Shown here piece after piece: positions 17,693-28,795 of a DNA stretch of 64,000 nt. The notes beneath the pieces are model-generated. The model searched no databases. It was not told the DNA's origin and saw nothing but the letters and a program-made list of their open reading frames with translations. Positions within the stretch are counted from its first letter, which is position 1. Every line of letters begins with the position of its first letter. Source of the stretch: Thraustochytrium sp. TN22 (Eukaryota; Sar; Bigyra; Thraustochytrida; Thraustochytriidae); assembly GCA_013306675.1 (NCBI GenBank), contig JABLUY010000025.1:1-64000 (forward strand), in the 5' to 3' direction. Both the position numbers and the translations under genes were made by a program.

Positions 17693-19016
17693 TCAGGCCT
17701 TGGCATCGTAGCTGGCGTCCGCAACGGCCGCAGAGCCACCGGTAGAGCTCCGGGTCTGATGCTCGTAGAGAAAGCGACCGAGCGAGAAGAACACGTGCAT
17801 GATGAGCCAGGCGATGAAGAAGAGATTGATGCCTGCAAACGCGACCCAGGTGTCGAAGACAAGGTCCTCAACCTCGTTGAAGATGCGCACCTCCTCCTGG
17901 TCGACGGAGAAGACGAGCACGACGACGGCGGCGAAGCCGAACATGGCGAGGCGGTAGGTGTCCGCGAAGGTGGCACGGGAGGACTTTTGCATGGCGGAGA
18001 TGCTCATGGCGACGAGCAGGGAGATGCTGAAGCTGAGCCAGGAGGACTTGTCCGTGAAGAAGCTGACGGATCCCGGCGCCAGCATGGCGAGCAGGAGCGG
18101 CTGCAGGAACTCGTAGATGACCGGAAGGCCGACGGCGCGGCGCAGAAAGACGTCGCAGGAGACCGTGCTGTACGTGTGGCGCTTGCCAAAGCCCGGGTTG
18201 GTGGTGAAGACGAGCGCAGGCGTCTTCCAGTAGGACCAGCGCCGGCTGAGAATGGGCTTGACCTCCTCCTCGCGAATGGCAGAGCACGAGGGGTCGACGT
18301 AGGTGGCATTGAAACTGGTGTGGTGATCCGTGTGCCGCAAATGGCCCACGATGATGCCCTGATTCCACGGGACAAAGACCAGGTAGCGGCTGTCCCAGTT
18401 GCTCGTGAACTTGACCTGCAGTTTGTGGAAATCGAAGGGAAACATGGCGCCGCCTTCCCCCAGCGGGTACATGAGCGACGCCATGCGGCCCGTGGTCTCG
18501 TTCTCGCGCAGGGGGTAGACGCCGTGGAGCTCGTAGCAGTAGACAATCTTCTGCTCGTCGTAGTCTAGGCGCGCCCACTCGTGCGTGGCCACATCGCCGA
18601 TGAACTCGATCCACGGCGCGTACTCCTGCACGTAGACGTTGGTGTCCTCCTCGGCACCGTTGCCCACCTTGACGCAGTGCGAGCCATCGCGCGTGGCGAT
18701 ACGATCCTCCTTTTGGATGCCGATTGACGCCAGCGGCACGCGCACGTACAGGAGCACCTTGGCAATGAAGGTGCTCGTCTCAATGTCGATGCTGTGGATG
18801 CCAATCACCTGGCACCGCACCTCTGCCAGCACCGGCGGCTTCACCTTCTCCTTCCAGAACTCGAACCACGTTGAGGATCGCTCTGTGCCGCGTGTCAGTA
18901 CTTGCTATAGCCGCTTAGGCCGCGAGCCAGGCCCACCCGCCTCACCAAACCGCACCAAGCCGCACCAACTCACTGTAGATGTTCGCCTCGTTCGGTGGCG
19001 CCCTGATCTGCGCCAT
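17693..19016 (-). CDS. Pentameric ligand-gated ion channel-like protein, copy 1 (one intron)
   Basis: Join of exon 1 (18974-19016, MAQIRAPPNEANIY plus one base) and exon 2 (17693-18882), giving 410 residues. The extracellular beta-sandwich carries VIGIHSIDIETSTFIAKV (beta1 region) and the family's FPFD motif (GAMFPFDFHKLQVKF, about 158-172). Four hydrophobic segments follow near 267-290, 295-312, 324-341 and 364-382, the family topology. The two cysteines of the animal Cys-loop are absent, as in many prokaryotic and protist members. No N-terminal signal peptide is visible, which is unusual for this topology, so an upstream exon cannot be excluded. Ligand and ion selectivity cannot be read from the sequence. 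It is one of a direct tandem pair with 20460-28795. Confidence 0.82.
18883..18973 (-). other. Intron of ion-channel copy 1 (91 nt)
   Basis: The donor is ACA|GTGAGTTGG and the acceptor GGCACAG|AGCG, with a TACTGAC branch-like motif about 13 nt upstream of the acceptor. The exons join in phase 1 to make a lysine codon. The paralogous gene keeps identical donor, branch and acceptor sequences. Confidence 0.85.
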
Positions 19017-20459: not shown

Positions 20460-23400
20460 TCAGGCCTTGGCATCGTAGCTGGCGTCCGCAATGGCCGCAG
20501 AGCCACCCGTAGAGATCCGGGTCTGGTGCTCGTAGAAAAAGCGACCGAGCGAGAAGAACACGTGCATGAGGAGCCAGGCGATGAAGAAGAGATTGATGCC
20601 TGCAAACGTACCCCAGGTGAGGAAGACAAGGTCCTCGACCTCGTTGAGGATGGGCACCTCCTCCTGGTCGACGGAGAAGACGAGCACGACGACGGCGGCG
20701 AAGCCGAACATGGCGAGGCGGTAGGTGTCTGCGAAGGTGGCACGGGAGGACTTGTGCATGACGGAGATGCTCATGGCGACGAGCAGGGAGATGTTGAAGC
20801 TGAGCCAGGAGGACTCGTCCGTGAAGAAGCTGACGGATCCCGGCGCCAGCATGGCGAGCAGGAGCGGCTGCAGGAACTCGTAGATGACCGGAAGGCCGAC
20901 GGCGCGGCGCAGAAAGACGTCGCAGGAGACCGTGCTGTACTTGTGTTGCTTGCCAAAGCCCGGGTCAGTGGTGAAGACGAGCGCGGGTGTCTTCCAGTAG
21001 GACCAGCGCCGGCTGAGAATGGGCTTGACCTCCTCCTCGCGAATGGCAGAGCACGAGGGGTCGACGTAGGTCGCCTCGAAGATGGTGTGGTGGTGCTCGT
21101 CGTACAGCATGTCGTCCACAGTGACGCCCTGATTCCACGGGACAAAGACCAGGTAGCGGCTGTCCCAGTTGCTCGTGAACTTGACCTGCAGCTTGTGGAA
21201 ATCGAAGGGGAACATGGCGCCGCCCTCCCCCAGCGGGTACATGAGCGACGCCATGCGGCCCGTGGTCTCGTTCTCGCGCAGGGGGTAGACGCCGTGGAGC
21301 TCGTAGCAGTAGACAATCTTCTCCCCGTCGTCGCTCAGGCGCGCCCACTCGTGCGTGGCCACATCGCCGATGAACTCGATCCACGGCGCGTACTCCTGCA
21401 CGTAGACGCCGTTGCCCACCTCGACGCAGTGCGAGCCATCGCGCGTGGCGATACGATCCTCCTTGTCGATGCCGATGGCCGTCAGCGGCACGCGCACGTA
21501 CAGGAGCACCTTGGCATGGAAGGTGCTCGTCTCAATGTCGATGCTGTGGATGCCAATCACCTGGCACCGCACCTCTGCCAGCACCGGCTGCGTCACCTTC
21601 GCCTTCCAGTAGTTGAACCACGTTGAGGATCGCTCTGTGCCGCGTGTCAGTACATGCTATATCCCAATCACACCTCTATGCTTACTCGTATCCGCCTACC
21701 ACGCGGGGGTCCCTCGGTGACGCCCGGCACAGGGGGCACTAAAGCGTATTAAGAGGGTACTTTACTCCCGATTTGCTCCAAAAAAGTGGCCTAGAGTCTG
21801 GCGAAGTTAGTTCCGCATTCGATCAAAAACGCAGCGATGGGGCCGAGCTTGAAGAGGCCCACTCGAAGCGACCCAAGGCTCCTGCCCCCTATTCATTTTG
21901 GCCGAAGGCGTGGTGGTTAGGATGAGATGAGCTCGGCAGTTCGCCCAGAGCGGCTTTGGGGGGAGCTCGCGCGCGACTTCGTCGCGGAGCGCGCTGGAGC
22001 CGCAGGCGCTGCGGCGCGCGGCTGCAGGCGGCCCTGGCGGGTGCCTTGTGCCTGCTCTCAGCTCGCACGCCCCTGCCGCAGCGCTTGGACGTGGAGTCGG
22101 GCCCGCACTGCGACATCATGGCATCGGCGAGGCCTAACCACCGCGTGGAGGACGACAGCGACAGCGACAGCGACAGCGAGTTCGTGCCCCTGGACAAGCG
22201 GGACACAGGGGACGAAGACGAAGAAGGAGAGGAGCTTGGCGACGAGGATGCTCGTGCTGAGGCCGCTGCGCAGCAAGACTTCGAAGACATACTTGCGTTG
22301 GTCGACGAACCGACGCGTGGTGCGAGTGCATGTTCGAGGTCGGCCTCATTCAGCACAAGACCGTTCCGGGGCTCGCAGTCTCGCCGGATGGAGTCGCTCG
22401 CGTCCGGCTTCCAGGCGCGGAGTGCGACGCATCGTCAGTACTATGCAGCGTCGAGATCAAGACGCGCGTCGCGCCTGGAGGCGCGGTAGACGCACGTATC
22501 GTGAGCACCCAGATGAACACGTGGGGGACGAGACTTGGTGGAAGGCCATACCTGCCGAGCACCGCGCGCAAGTCTTGCACCAAGCTGTGGTCCTCCAAAT
22601 CGATCACGTGCTCTACGTTGCTGCCAGCACGAGTTCGTGTTTGTACGCCTGCCTCGTTGAAGTGCCTCCGGACGCCCGGCTCGCCATGGAGCGCGCTCTG
22701 AAACCGTGGGCGGACAAGCTCACGACATGGGCGCACCAGAGCATCGACAGCGGGTGCGCCGCCCAAGCCACCTGCCATCTTCGGCGAGGAGGAGGGGGCG
22801 GTGCTGAGCTCGCACTTCCGGCTGTGGCGCGCCATGCGCAAGCTTGTCGCTCTGAAGGGGCCCATGCGGCCCGTGCATGTCATCAAGTGCTTACCGCAGG
22901 AGCTATACAACGTCGCAAAGGGCGGCGTCGACGGAAGCACACAGTACGTGGAGCAGATCACCAACACGCAGTGCATGAATCTGAGCTGCGACCAGAACAT
23001 CGCGTTGCGCACGTACAAGCAGCTCGTTGTCAACGCCATCGTGGTCTACCGCTACTTACAGGCTGCGAGGAAGAGCAACCTCGAAGACAGCGACGGGCTA
23101 AAGGCCCTCCGCGACAAGGTGAACCGCTCTGAAGCGCTCAGCACTGTCTCGTTCCGCCTCACTGTCGACATGGTCCGTCACGTCTACAGGAGCAGGCAGC
23201 TCGATACGGCGCAGGTGGAGTTCAACATGCAGCCAAGCATGCCCAAGCCCACTGGGCTCACCAGGGAAGCGGCGAGGGACCTCGTGACCGCCGGTAAGCG
23301 CAAGCGAACCCCCGAGTTGCAGAAGTTCTTCAACCACGGCCAAGCCCGCGACATCCGCCTCGATGCCGCACTGCAACATGACTCAGAGGCAGCGGGAAAG

Positions 23401-26400
23401 GCATCCTTCAACGCCAACAACAAGAGGATTCCCGCCAAGCGGCTCTGCGTCATCTGCGGCAAGCAAACGCACCGTCGTTGCACCATCTGCGGTGTGCCTC
23501 TGCACGTGTTCATGAGAAAGAATGAACGCACAACCTGCTTTTCCAAGTGGCACACGCGCGTGCGCGTCGAGCCTCACGAAGGCTTCAAGAAGCGCAAGAC
23601 AAACGTCAACGGAACACCTTCGCCCATTTGCCTCGATCATGTCGATTCGAGCAGCGCCAGTGCCTCGTCCGGTACCCCTACAGCGCAGAGCAGGAACGAC
23701 CACGTAGCCCAAGCCAGCTACACCGACACCCCATCAAGCCATAGTTCAAGATCCTCTCGCAGCAGCCTCAGCACGAGTCCATCGTGCCCTTGATGCAGCC
23801 CAAGTTGGCCTCAGCATCCGCACAGGCCAGTCGGAAGTGACCAACACTTTACGCTTCCATACAAACCCAGTAGTTGAAAGTTCCAAAAATGATTAGAATC
23901 ATGATAGCAACAGGTCAGTCGAGCGCAAGCAGGAGAGCCGATTTACTAGGGATAATATCCCAATCCCATCGCCCTAGACGGAGTTTAATCAGGATAGCCA
24001 TATCCCAATCCCATCGCCCTAGACGGAGTTTAATCAGGATAGCCATATTATCCCTAGTAAATCGGCTCTCCTGCTTGCGCTCGACTGACCTGTTGCTATC
24101 ATGATTCTAATCATTTTTGGAACTTTCAACTACTGGGTTTGTATGGAAGCGTAAAGTGTTGGTCACTTCCGACTGGCCTGTGCGGATGCTGAGGCCAACT
24201 TGGGCTGCATCAAGGGCACGATGGACTCGTGCTGAGGCTGCTGCGAGAGGATCTTGAACTATGGCTTGATGGGGTGTCGGTGTAGCTGGCTTGGGCTACG
24301 TGGTCGTTCCTGCTCTGCGCTGTAGGGGTACCGGACGAGGCACTGGCGCTGCTCGAATCGACATGATCGAGGCAAATGGGCGAAGGTGTTCCGTTGACGT
24401 TTGTCTTGCGCTTCTTGAAGCCTTCGTGAGGCTCGACGCGCACGCGCGTGTGCCACTTGGAAAAGCAGGTTGTGCGTTCATTCTTTCTCATGAACACGTG
24501 CAGAGGCACACCGCAGATGGTGCAACGACGGTGCGTTTGCTTGCCGCAGATGACGCAGAGCCGCTTGGCGGGAATCCTCTTGTTGTTGGCGTTGAAGGAT
24601 GCCTTTCCCGCTGCCTCTGAGTCATGTTGCAGTGCGGCATCGAGGCGGATGTCGCGGGCGTGGCCGTGGTTGAAGAACTTCTGCAACTCGGGTGTTCGCT
24701 TGCGCTTACCGGCGGTCACGAGGTCCCTCGCCGCTTCCCTGGTGAGCCCATTGGGCTTGGGCATGCTTGGCTGCATGTTGAACTCCACCTGCGCCGTATC
24801 GAGCTGCCTGCTCCTGTAGACGTGACGGACCATGTCGACAGTGAGGCGGAACGAGACAGTGCTGAGCGCTTCAGAGCGGTTCACCTTGTCGCGGAGGGCC
24901 TTTAGCCCGTCGCTGTCTTCGAGGTTGCTCTTCCTCGCAGCCTGTAAGTAGCGGTAGACCACGATGGCGTTGACAACGAGCTGCTTGTACGTGCGCAACG
25001 CGATGTTCTGGTCGCAGCTCAGATTCATGCACTGCGTGTTGGTGATCTGCTCCACGTACTGTGTGCTTCCGTCGACGCCGCCCTTTGCGACGTTGTATAG
25101 CTCCTGCGGTAAGCACTTGATGACATGCACGGGCCGCATGGGCCCCTTCAGAGCGACAAGCTTGCGCATGGCGCGCCACAGCCGGAAGTGCGAGCTCAGC
25201 ACCGCCCCCTCCTCCTCGCCGAAGATGGCAGGTGGCTTGGGCGGCGCACCCGCTGTCGATGCTCTGGTGCGCCCATGTCGTGAGCTTGTCCGCCCACGGT
25301 TTCAGAGCGCGCTCCATGGCGAGCCGGGCGTCCGGAGGCACTTCAACGAGGCAGGCGTACAAACACGAACTCGTGCTGGCAGCAACGTAGAGCACGTGAT
25401 CGATTTGGAGGACCACAGCTTGGTGCAAGACTTGCGCGCGGTGCTCGGCAGGTATGGCCTTCCACCAAGTCTCGTCCCCCACGTGTTCATCTGGGTGCTC
25501 ACGATACGTGCGTCTACCGCGCCTCCAGGCGCGACGCGCGTCTTGATCTCGACGCTGCATAGTACTGACGATGCGTCGCACTCCGCGCCTGGAAGCCGGA
25601 CGCGAGCGACTCCATCCGGCGAGACTGCGAGCCCCGGAACGGTCTTGTGCTGAATGAGGCCGACCTCGAACATGCACTCGCACCACGCGTCGGTTCGTCG
25701 ACCAACGCAAGTATGTCTTCGAAGTCTTGCTGCGCAGCGGCCTCAGCACGAGCATCCTCGTCGCCAAGCTCCTCTCCTTCTTCGTCTTCGTCCCCTGTGT
25801 CCCGCTTGTCCAGGGGCACGAACTCGCTGTCGCTGTCGCTGTCGCTGTCGTCCTCCACGCGGTGGTTAGGCCTCGCCGATGCCATGATGTCGCAGTGCGG
25901 GCCCGACTCCACGTCCAAGCGCTGCGGCAGGGGCGTGCGAGCTGAGAGCAGGCACAAGGCACCCGCCAGGGCCGCCTGCAGCCGCGCGCCGCAGCGCCTG
26001 CGGCTCCAGCGCGCTCCGCGACGAAGTCGCGCGCGAGCTCCCCCCAAAGCCGCTCTGGGCGAACTGCCGAGCTCATCTCATCCTAACCACCACGCCTTCG
26101 GCCAAAATGAATAGGGGGCAGGAGCCTTGGGTCGCTTCGAGTGGGCCTCTTCAAGCTCGGCCCCATCGCTGCGTTTTTGATCGAATGCGGAACTAACTTC
26201 GCCAGACTCTAGGCCACTTTTTTGGAGCAAATCGGGAGTAAAGTACCCTCTTAATACGCTTTAGTGCCCCCTGTGCCGGGCGTCACCGAGGGACCCCCGC
26301 GTGGTAGGCGGATACGAGTAAGCATAGAGGTGTGATTGGGATATTATCCCTAGTAAATCGGCTCTCCTGCTTGCGCTCGACTGACCTGTTGCTATCATGA

Positions 26401-28795
26401 TTCTAATCATTTTTGGAACTTTCAACTACTGGGTTTGTATGGAAGCGTAAAGTGTTGGTCACTTCCGACTGGCCTGTGCGGATGCTGAGGCCAACTTGGG
26501 CTGCATCAAGGGCACGATGGACTCGTGCTGAGGCTGCTGCGAGAGGATCTTGAACTATGGCTTGATGGGGTGTCGGTGTAGCTGGCTTGGGCTACGTGGT
26601 CGTTCCTGCTCTGCGCTGTAGGGGTACCGGACGAGGCACTGGCGCTGCTCGAATCGACATGATCGAGGCAAATGGGCGAAGGTGTTCCGTTGACGTTTGT
26701 CTTGCGCTTCTTGAAGCCTTCGTGAGGCTCGACGCGCACGCGCGTGTGCCACTTGGAAAAGCAGGTTGTGCGTTCATTCTTTCTCATGAACACGTGCAGA
26801 GGCACACCGCAGATGGTGCAACGACGGTGCGTTTGCTTGCCGCAGATGACGCAGAGCCGCTTGGCGGGAATCCTCTTGTTGTTGGCGTTGAAGGATGCCT
26901 TTCCCGCTGCCTCTGAGTCATGTTGCAGTGCGGCATCGAGGCGGATGTCGCGGGCTTGGCCGTGGTTGAAGAACTTCTGCAACTCGGGGGTTCGCTTGCG
27001 CTTACCGGCGGTCACGAGGTCCCTCGCCGCTTCCCTGGTGAGCCCAGTGGGCTTGGGCATGCTTGGCTGCATGTTGAACTCCACCTGCGCCGTATCGAGC
27101 TGCCTGCTCCTGTAGACGTGACGGACCATGTCGACAGTGAGGCGGAACGAGACAGTGCTGAGCGCTTCAGAGCGGTTCACCTTGTCGCGGAGGGCCTTTA
27201 GCCCGTCGCTGTCTTCGAGGTTGCTCTTCCTCGCAGCCTGTAAGTAGCGGTAGACCACGATGGCGTTGACAACGAGCTGCTTGTACGTGCGCAACGCGAT
27301 GTTCTGGTCGCAGCTCAGATTCATGCACTGCGTGTTGGTGATCTGCTCCACGTACTGTGTGCTTCCGTCGACGCCGCCCTTTGCGACGTTGTATAGCTCC
27401 TGCGGTAAGCACTTGATGACATGCACGGGCCGCATGGGCCCCTTCAGAGCGACAAGCTTGCGCATGGCGCGCCACAGCCGGAAGTGCGAGCTCAGCACCG
27501 CCCCCTCCTCCTCGCCGAAGATGGCAGGTGGCTTGGGCGGCGCACCCGCTGTCGATGCTCTGGTGCGCCCATGTCGTGAGCTTGTCCGCCCACGGTTTCA
27601 GAGCGCGCTCCATGGCGAGCCGGGCGTCCGGAGGCACTTCAACGAGGCAGGCGTACAAACACGAACTCGTGCTGGCAGCAACGTAGAGCACGTGATCGAT
27701 TTGGAGGACCACAGCTTGGTGCAAGACTTGCGCGCGGTGCTCGGCAGGTATGGCCTTCCACCAAGTCTCGTCCCCCACGTGTTCATCTGGGTGCTCACGA
27801 TACGTGCGTCTACCGCGCCTCCAGGCGCGACGCGCGTCTTGATCTCGACGCTGCATAGTACTGACGATGCGTCGCACTCCGCGCCTGGAAGCCGGACGCG
27901 AGCGACTCCATCCGGCGAGACTGCGAGCCCCGGAACGGTCTTGTGCTGAATGAGGCCGACCTCGAACATGCACTCGCACCACGCGTCGGTTCGTCGACCA
28001 ACGCAAGTATGTCTTCGAAGTCTTGCTGCGCAGCGGCCTCAGCACGAGCATCCTCGTCGCCAAGCTCCTCTCCTTCTTCGTCTTCGTCCCCTGTGTCCCG
28101 CTTGTCCAGGGGCACGAACTCGCTGTCGCTGTCGCTGTCGCTGTCGTCCTCCACGCGGTGGTTAGGCCTCGCCGATGCCATGATGTCGCAGTGCGGGCCC
28201 GACTCCACGTCCAAGCGCTGCGGCAGGGGCGTGCGAGCTGAGAGCAGGCACAAGGCACCCGCCAGGGCCGCCTGCAGCCGCGCGCCGCAGCGCCTGCGGC
28301 TCCAGCGCGCTCCGCGACGAAGTCGCGCGCGAGCTCCCCCCAAAGCCGCTCTGGGCGAACTGCCGAGCTCATCTCATCCTAACCACCACGCCTTCGGCCA
28401 AAATGAATAGGGGGCAGGAGCCTTGGGTCGCTTCGAGTGGGCCTCTTCAAGCTCGGCCCCATCGCTGCGTTTTTGATCGAATGCGGAACTAACTTCGCCA
28501 GACTCTAGGCCACTTTTTTGGAGCAAATCGGGAGTAAAGTACCCTCTTAATACGCTTTAGTGCCCCCTGTGCCGGGCGTCACCGAGGGACCCCCGCGTGG
28601 TAGGCGGATACGAGTAAGCATAGAGGTGTGATTGGGATATGGCTATCCTGATTAAACTCCGTCTAGGGCGATGGGATTGGGATAGCCTGCTCTAGCCGCT
28701 TTGGCCGCGAGCCCGCCCGCCCGCCTCACCAAGCCGGTGCGCACCAACTCACTGTAGATGCTCGCATCGCTCGGTGGCGCCCTGATCTGCGCCAT
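20460..28795 (-). CDS. Pentameric ligand-gated ion channel-like protein, copy 2, intron expanded by transposons
   Basis: Join of exon 1 (28753-28795, MAQIRAPPSDASIY plus one base) and exon 2 (20460-21634), giving 405 residues with no internal stop. The layout equals copy 1: FPFD motif, four membrane segments, no Cys-loop cysteines. Differences from copy 1 cluster in the extracellular part. A six-residue gap falls after GNG, the stretch before HHT is replaced (VTVDDMLYDE versus IIVGHLRHTD), and the TM3-TM4 linker differs. The membrane segments are almost unchanged. The intron is 7,118 nt instead of 91 nt because three transposon copies lie inside it, but donor, branch-like motif and acceptor are intact. 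Whether the intron is still removed cannot be read from the sequence. Confidence 0.75.
21663..23954 (+). mobile_element. DNA transposon copy 1 (2,292 bp), piggyBac/YqaJ-like
   Basis: One of three equal-length copies. The 5' end reads CCCAATCACACCTC and the 3' end CGATTTACTAGGGATA, so both ends terminate in a CCC/GGG-type tip with only very short terminal inversion. It is flanked by ATAT on both sides (21659-21662 and 23955-23958), read as a 4-bp target duplication. The CCCTAG tip recalls piggyBac ends, but piggyBac duplicates TTAA, not ATAT. No reverse transcriptase, capsid, integrase or long terminal repeat is present. About 0.45 kb of 5' non-coding sequence precedes the coding part. It shows no difference from copy 3 at the protein level. 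Confidence 0.85.
22118..23793 (+). pseudogene. Transposon protein, copy 1: acidic N-terminus, YqaJ-like nuclease motif, CF..WH finger; frame-disrupted
   Basis: Coding similarity runs from MASARPNHRVEDDSDSDSDS (22118, acidic N-terminus) to the stop at 23793. A nuclease-like block follows the acidic part: EVGLIQHKTVPGLAVSPDGV (from about 22333) with VEIKTRV (from about 22450), the SPDG...(E)xK layout of YqaJ/lambda-exonuclease PD-(D/E)XK enzymes. A WWKAIPAEHRAQV stretch typical of the same fold comes next. The C-terminal part (open from 22745) has PVHVIKCLPQELYNVAKGGV and ends in a finger, CVICGKQTHRRCTICGVPL...CFSKWHT, as at the end of piggyBac proteins. The conserved blocks lie in different frames with at least three frame changes, too close together for introns. 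I see no DDE/D transposase core. Confidence 0.7.
23955..24048. repeat. Two 41-bp mini-units separated by ATAT
   Basis: Two identical 41-bp units (23959-23999 and 24004-24044) sit between transposon copies 1 and 2, each bounded by ATAT. A third, inverted unit lies at 28641-28681. Each starts CCCAATC, like the transposon 5' end, and ends TTTAATCAGGATAGCC, resembling the transposon 3' end TTTACTAGGGATA. They look like minimal derivatives or relatives of the element, or solo remnants of an older insertion. Confidence 0.75.
24049..26340 (-). mobile_element. DNA transposon copy 2 (2,292 bp)
   Basis: Inverted relative to copy 1 and in direct orientation with copy 3. Flanking ATAT at 24045-24048 and 26341-26344. 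It differs from copies 1 and 3 at about three bases that I can see, two of them changing residues in the C-terminal coding part (a Thr to Asn and a Gln to His). Confidence 0.85.
24210..25885 (-). pseudogene. Transposon protein, copy 2; frame-disrupted
   Basis: Same coding blocks in the same relative frames as copy 1, so the disruptions predate the amplification. Residue differences are MPKPNGL for MPKPTGL and NHGHARD for NHGQARD. Confidence 0.7.
26345..28636 (-). mobile_element. DNA transposon copy 3 (2,292 bp)
   Basis: Head-to-tail with copy 2, sharing a single ATAT (26341-26344) between them; the other flank is ATAT at 28637-28640. The shared junction fits insertion of one copy into the target duplication of the other, or unequal exchange. 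Its deduced protein segments are identical to those of copy 1. Confidence 0.85.
26506..28181 (-). pseudogene. Transposon protein, copy 3; frame-disrupted
   Basis: Same blocks and same frame changes as copy 1; no residue differences from copy 1 in the parts compared. Confidence 0.7.
28641..28681 (-). repeat. Third 41-bp mini-unit, inverted
   Basis: Reverse complement of the units at 23959-24044, bounded by ATAT (28637-28640) and ATAG (28682-28685). Host intron sequence (CTAGCCGCTTTGGCCGCGAG) resumes just after it. Confidence 0.75.

Follow-up and report, generated by a model that had tools for sequence, protein, structure and literature searches.

Three copies of one 2,337-bp mobile DNA element, very probably nested one inside another, in a single predicted intron of Thraustochytrium sp. 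TN22

In the stretch of DNA analysed here (64,000 nucleotides of Thraustochytrium sp. TN22, contig JABLUY010000025.1, positions 1 to 64,000, hereafter the window), one predicted intron is 7,118 nt long and is filled with transposon-like bodies and short units bounded by the same four bases, when the corresponding intron of a neighbouring paralogue is predicted at 91 nt. The question raised by this locus is what these units are and how they came to lie together. The reading adopted here, with a probability of about 0.9, is that a young mobile DNA element is present in the window as three complete copies, nested in a single intron.

The anatomy of the array is confirmed in the sequence (Table 1). 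Three bodies of 2,292 bp are present, the first (+) and the third (-) identical in sequence and the second (-) differing from both at 3 of its 2,292 positions, together with three 41-bp units, one of them inverted. All junctions read ATAT except the last, which reads ATAG, so that the flanks of the outermost copy are unequal. The unit order, body lengths, junctions and coordinates given by an earlier sequence-only reading hold; its count of three transposons plus three mini-units was abandoned, since a body, an ATAT and a 41-bp unit make up one element. In bracket notation the array is parsed as A( B( C ) ), with A (+) outermost, B (-) inside A and C (-) inside B.

Table 1. Positions of the nested elements, their junctions and the two predicted introns in the window
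Feature	Position	Strand	Basis
Paralogue intron (91 nt, predicted), empty site ATAG at 18907-18910	18883..18973	-	motif and sequence comparison
Intron with nested elements (7,118 nt, predicted)	21635..28752	-	donor, branch-like and acceptor motifs matching the paralogue
Left outer junction of element A, ATAT	21659..21662		sequence
Body of the outermost element, A (2,292 bp)	21663..23954	+	sequence
Internal ATAT of A (left-hand target duplicate of B)	23955..23958		sequence
Element B 3' terminal 41 bp (mini-unit of the earlier reading)	23959..23999	-	sequence
Internal ATAT of B (left-hand target duplicate of C)	24000..24003		sequence
Uninterrupted full-length element C (2,337 bp)	24004..26340	-	41-bp end 24004-24044, internal ATAT 24045-24048, body 24049-26340
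Right-hand target duplicate of C	26341..26344		sequence
Element B body (2,292 bp)	26345..28636	-	sequence
Right-hand target duplicate of B	28637..28640		sequence
Element A 3' terminal 41 bp (inverted mini-unit)	28641..28681	+	sequence
Right outer junction of element A, ATAG	28682..28685		sequence

Element ends were mapped by exact-pattern searches of the genome assembly, their flanks were recorded, and 5' and 3' ends were then paired by distance; all counts beyond the window come from this one assembly. In total 127 outer 3' ends (73 + 54) and 115 outer 5' ends (55 + 60) were mapped. Pairing resolved them into 94 complete copies, all exactly 2,337 bp long except for one of 2,341 bp. Copies with an altered end are missed by exact patterns (for example at the 5' end of the long C81 copy and the 3' end of the C109 copy), and the outermost copy of the window, split by a nested insertion, is not among the 94. 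Both ends of the element start with CCCAATC; the matching inverted repeat lies on the outer end of the 41-bp unit and is absent from the other end of the body, which in the fetched loci is usually followed directly by ATAT and the 41-bp unit in the same orientation. Because ends are paired at a fixed distance and CCCAATC is found at both of them, the mobile unit is the body plus ATAT plus 41 bp, 2,337 bp and not 2,292 bp, and the mini-units are the 3' ends of split copies. Two separate mobile elements, one of 2,292 bp and one of 41 bp, each inserting at ATAT, would fit the ATAT boundaries of both in the window and the extra tandem 41-bp units found elsewhere, but they are very improbable given that 94 of the 115 5' ends pair at one distance and orientation, nearly all at 2,337 bp, that the terminal repeat is placed as described, and that nesting explains the seemingly free 41-bp units of the window. 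Copy number and arrays are probably under-counted, because element ends lie at contig edges (C451:30-62, C413:32-63, C70:89399-89431) and a run of N lies inside one copy (C111:399702-404384).

Among the four bases flanking the element, the central TA was present at all 242 mapped ends. The 5' flanks (n = 115) were ATAT in 83 cases, CTAT in 12, ATAG in 10, TTAT in 5 and ATAA in 5; the 3' flanks (n = 127) were ATAT in 92, ATAG in 13, CTAT in 12, ATAA in 6 and TTAT in 4. Repeated targeting of ATAT, proposed by the sequence-only reading for the window, is thus supported genome-wide, and the genome search for further copies that it had suggested returned these five flanks and not unrelated tetranucleotides. 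Flanks were identical in 80 of the 94 paired copies, mostly as ATAT, and unequal in 14, with mismatches at the first or fourth base only. For the 60 paired insertions lying outside other copies, 49 had identical flanks, 13 of these non-ATAT, and neither value was reached in any of 20,000 flank shuffles. Since identical flanks exceed every shuffle, the element makes a true 4-bp target duplication. A strictly ATAT duplication was rejected given the CTAT, ATAG, ATAA and TTAT variants, and a duplication of TA only was rejected as matched non-ATAT flanks beat 20,000 of 20,000 shuffles. Another mechanism, with a TA-duplicating Tc1-like transposase or a recombinase exchanging short coupling sequences, would agree with TA as the sole invariant and with the unequal outer bases of 14 paired copies; it is considered unlikely in view of the 13 of 60 identical non-ATAT flanks, of the DDE-like protein encoded by a longer relative (see below), and of the profile scans of that protein, in which no recombinase family was matched. 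A pure 4-bp duplication leaves the unequal flanks unexplained (14 of 94, and the outermost copy of the window), and these could result from overhang bases of the element that are sometimes retained after integration. For piggyBac, a 4-nt flap derived from flanking DNA is described in the available text of PMC7351741, and the 14 unequal pairs bear on the survival of donor overhang bases through integration.

The host intron was delimited from a donor GTGAGT, a branch-like TACTGAC and an acceptor GCACAG common to the occupied intron and that of the paralogue, and the motifs and coordinates match those of the sequence-only reading, which had set the same signals around 7.1 kb against the 91-nt intron. 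Its naming of a channel gene found no such match: no family reached the Pfam cut-off for either paralogue, and a PDB search with one of them gave only an endolysin at E 0.045. The two are a tandem pair of similar genes (17693-18904 and 20460-21656, minus strand), in both of which a short first exon precedes the intron. The clean paralogue does provide the empty site, as had been proposed, but not a perfect ATAT. Because this empty site reads ATAG, the outermost insertion was probably not made at a perfect ATAT. When the three elements with their duplications (3 x 2,341 = 7,023 nt) are subtracted from 7,118 nt, an intron of 95 nt is left.

The element contains a single ATAT, at position 2293, 41 bp from its 3' end. 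This internal site holds 17 of the 115 5' ends (16 at ATAT, one at CTAT), 7 in the orientation of the host copy and 10 in the opposite one, a count in which 5' ends beside an extra tandem 41-bp unit are indistinguishable by flank from true internal-site insertions; both inner copies of the window sit there. The remaining 5' ends comprise 7 abutting the outer end of another copy, 2 in TTATAT-spaced tandems, one in a 41-bp end, one near a 5' end and 87 elsewhere. Self-targeting, suggested earlier for the duplicated target of the element, is therefore retained, with the internal ATAT and not the duplicated outer flank as the favoured self-target (17 against 7 of 115). The site lies within a short imperfect palindrome, GGATA...TATCC, and binding of this palindrome by the transposase may be the reason why it is favoured. 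In bracket notation 74 of 97 clusters balance and 23 do not; for clusters with at least two 5' ends, 14 of 20 balance, of which 13 are read as nests and the last as a tandem. Among the 23 unbalanced clusters are some contig ends, one copy with N, some ends missed by the exact pattern and several extra tandem 41-bp units (three at C189), which would be the expected residue of recombination between two directly nested bodies. Two arrays, L055 (C61:70433-75110) and L056 (C18:12775-17497), have no simple nested parse; in the former an insertion seemingly lies in the CTAT of a 41-bp end, the 35-bp core bounded by CTAT and ATAG being read in inverse orientation.

An array produced by misassembly, or by recombination between copies instead of insertion, has very little probability. 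Several contigs do end in element copies, one copy contains N, and tandem 41-bp units could come from recombination; body 2, however, has three private differences, the intron left after subtraction is close to the 91 nt of the paralogue, and 10 of the 17 internal-site copies are inverted relative to their host, which unequal crossing-over cannot produce. In the preferred order of nested insertions, A (+) would have entered an ATAG target in an intron of roughly 95 nt, B (-) would have entered the single internal ATAT of A, 41 bp from its 3' end, and C (-) the internal ATAT of B, each insertion separating the 2,292-bp body of its host element from the 41-bp mini-unit. Each step would likely be a cut-and-paste reaction by a DDE transposase on CCCAATC ends, with a 4-bp staggered cut at NTAN and a preference for ATAT; catalysis is deduced here, and the transposase would come from a 4.1-kb relative or from another copy that the assembly lacks. 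It is highly likely that three complete 2,337-bp non-autonomous DNA transposons were nested in the order A, B, C, probably by DDE cut-and-paste, and the nesting is apparently due to the tendency of the element to jump into one spot in its own sequence. With nesting through one internal site, the order of insertion can be read off and target choice by the transposase is open to a natural test; an element that inserts into itself at a fixed internal position could also do less damage to a compact genome.

Enrichment at the internal site was evaluated assuming 118 internal sites (115 5' ends; 116 protein matches of at least 97% identity) and an ATAT rate taken from 79,177 bp of other sequence only, where 20 ATAT were counted, that is about 9,600 per genome. 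Under these assumptions 16 of the 83 ATAT 5' junctions lie at the internal site where about 1.0 is expected (binomial P 6e-15). When 50%, 20% or 10% of the other sites are taken as tolerated, 2.0, 4.8 or 9.1 internal hits are expected (P 1e-10, 2e-5 and 0.018, respectively). Random insertion at ATAT, with nested copies over-represented through selective loss elsewhere in a compact genome, is less probable but keeps appreciable weight: the window is gene-dense, and enrichment is weaker if few genomic ATAT sites are tolerated, as at 10%. At 50% or 20% tolerance this explanation falls well short of the count, and the outer flanks of resident copies, which offer roughly double the number of sites at no greater harm, received 7 of the 115 5' ends against 17. 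Targeting of the internal site is likely, because the hits exceed expectation even with reduced tolerated fractions, though it is not cleanly separated from selection.

Longer relatives of the element are present in the same genome. Positions 1-650 of the short element match the long C81 copy (98.9%) and positions 653-2337 the long C109 copy (98.4%), and about 1.8 kb between positions 650 and 653 is absent from the short copies. As reckoned from the overlap of C81 and C109, which also gave the size of the missing part, the full-length relative is about 4.13 kb; the C81 copy spans 4,172 bp, including one extra 41-bp unit. Because both ends are common to the longer relatives and the internal coding sequence is missing, the short copies are, by sequence comparison, non-autonomous elements derived by deletion from one of roughly 4.1 kb. 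The more distantly related C239 has a single frame of 1,213 codons, and a genome search with the central part of its protein returned C81, C109 and C394 with the same score and an open frame of 998 codons, and C33 with one stop. The coding frame is interrupted ahead of GGVD in every copy read (three in the window, one at C111 and the long one at C109), and no intact transposase source was found among them. A 1,199-residue "open frame" at C111:400792 was rejected as such a source since it runs through a stretch of N, and C48 was rejected because it is a diverged copy whose deletion differs, the 3.1 kb examined showing no matching ends. An intact relative of 1,248 codons (L070:480-4226, C232) has the D1, D2 and GGVD motifs of C239 replaced, and is perhaps a domesticated, non-catalytic protein. 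Long open frames of 1,227 codons at L072 (C322, which runs off the contig edge) and C151:40727-42358 match the family proteins in part only. A scan of viral_contigs with alignment A1 gave 54 pattern matches, none of which was confirmed.

Around its first two Asp, C239 has weak matches to IS4-type transposases, below both curated cut-offs: PF01609 at E 1e-4, just under the cut-off, and the IS4 model NF033591 at E 1.3e-4, far under it. The D1-D2 spacing is 78 in C239 and C109, and the third Asp of C239 lies in GGVD, a motif also present in the window copies. D2 and D3 are about 458 residues apart, with a RecE/YqaJ-like stretch between them that PHROG 434 ("RecE-like recombination exonuclease") matches in C239 (E 1.1e-6) and C109 (E 2.9e-5), a match by sequence to the RecE/YqaJ family. 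PF09588 (YqaJ) was matched by C109 only, at E 0.013 and below the cut-off, with no row for C239; the best Pfam row for the C109 stretch was SgrT (E 3.5e-4), above PF09588 and likewise below the cut-off. The Pfam scan of the corresponding C232 stretch gave no row, and matches to the PDB exonuclease 3syy were weak (E 0.1 and 0.61). The catalytic motifs of RecE/YqaJ enzymes are the D in SPDG and E-x-K; putative counterparts, SPDG and VEIK, are present in C239 and C109 and replaced in C232. The nuclease-like domain and the DDE region share one frame in C239 and C109. A C-terminal Cys/His pattern is visible, with no zinc-domain model at cut-off; a phmmer search of C239 against PDB gave two chance rows only, and the predicted fold of the window fragment, with a mean pLDDT of 36, was too low to use. 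From these motifs and profile matches, the transposase seems to be a remote DDE enzyme of IS4/piggyBac type that bears a RecE/YqaJ-like nuclease domain between D2 and D3.

Comparison with piggyBac, as far as described in the available text of PMC7351741, shows three putative catalytic Asp, a spacing of 78 between the first two (D268-D346 in piggyBac), a third Asp in GGxD, a C-terminal Cys/His pattern and a 4-bp duplication in common, whereas PF13843 is lacking here and D2-D3 is about 458 residues instead of 101, with the RecE/YqaJ-like domain within. PF13843 (DDE_Tnp_1_7) was absent from C239, C232 and C322 (E up to 5) and from C109, C48 and C81 (N-terminal part; E up to 10), and hhalign against a PF13843 gene placed the IDDELVG stretch on a DEVL stretch with a probability of only 2.65%. 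The flanks at all 242 ends are other than the TTAA of piggyBac, and both ends read CCCA and not CC[C/T]T. Standard piggyBac membership was rejected on these three points (PF13843, TTAA and CC[C/T]T); judged by its sequence features, the element would work like a piggyBac-type cut-and-paste transposon, yet lies outside standard piggyBac.

The nearest printed phenomenon found is that of the coral CMITEs, given in the available part of PMC2872659 as piggyBac-derived MITEs with TTAA duplications and ends that conform to CC[C/T]T. They are likewise non-autonomous, with ends starting in CC, a fixed 4-bp duplication and tandem arrays of full-sized copies, and the CMITE-IN family arose when one copy inserted into a different element, as in the nesting seen here; the present element differs in its NTAN target (mostly ATAT), its CCCA ends and its repeated nesting at one internal site. 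With the ISL2EU group of PHIS transposons, as far as covered by the text available from PMC4482050, it shares an encoded YqaJ exonuclease domain and an AT-rich target, but there the YqaJ protein is encoded by an ORF separate from the DDE transposase and the duplication is a 2-bp AT, whereas here 4 bp are duplicated and the nuclease-like domain stands in the DDE frame in C239 and C109. Searches of the open-licence literature returned no piggyBac paper on thraustochytrids, none on nested MITEs, and for piggyBac with YqaJ only titles not about a transposase; the combination of features of this element was not found in print in that literature. An undescribed deep IS4/piggyBac-like DDE lineage, with a RecE/YqaJ-type nuclease in place of the piggyBac insertion domain, an NTAN target, and a landing site of its own, set in a palindrome that the transposase binds close to the 3' end, where new copies are caught, is a tentative and rather doubtful proposal; if true, such a self-made safe haven would spare host genes. 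A nuclease-like domain inside a DDE transposase also raises the question of whether the same protein processes the ends, opens hairpins or repairs the donor site.

An apparently separate piggyBac family is present in the genome: C398:74214-75338, C16:7745-8404 and C76:33366-33776 match DDE_Tnp_1_7 above the cut-off, C398 at E 1.4e-35 in the same scan as C109, C48 and C81.
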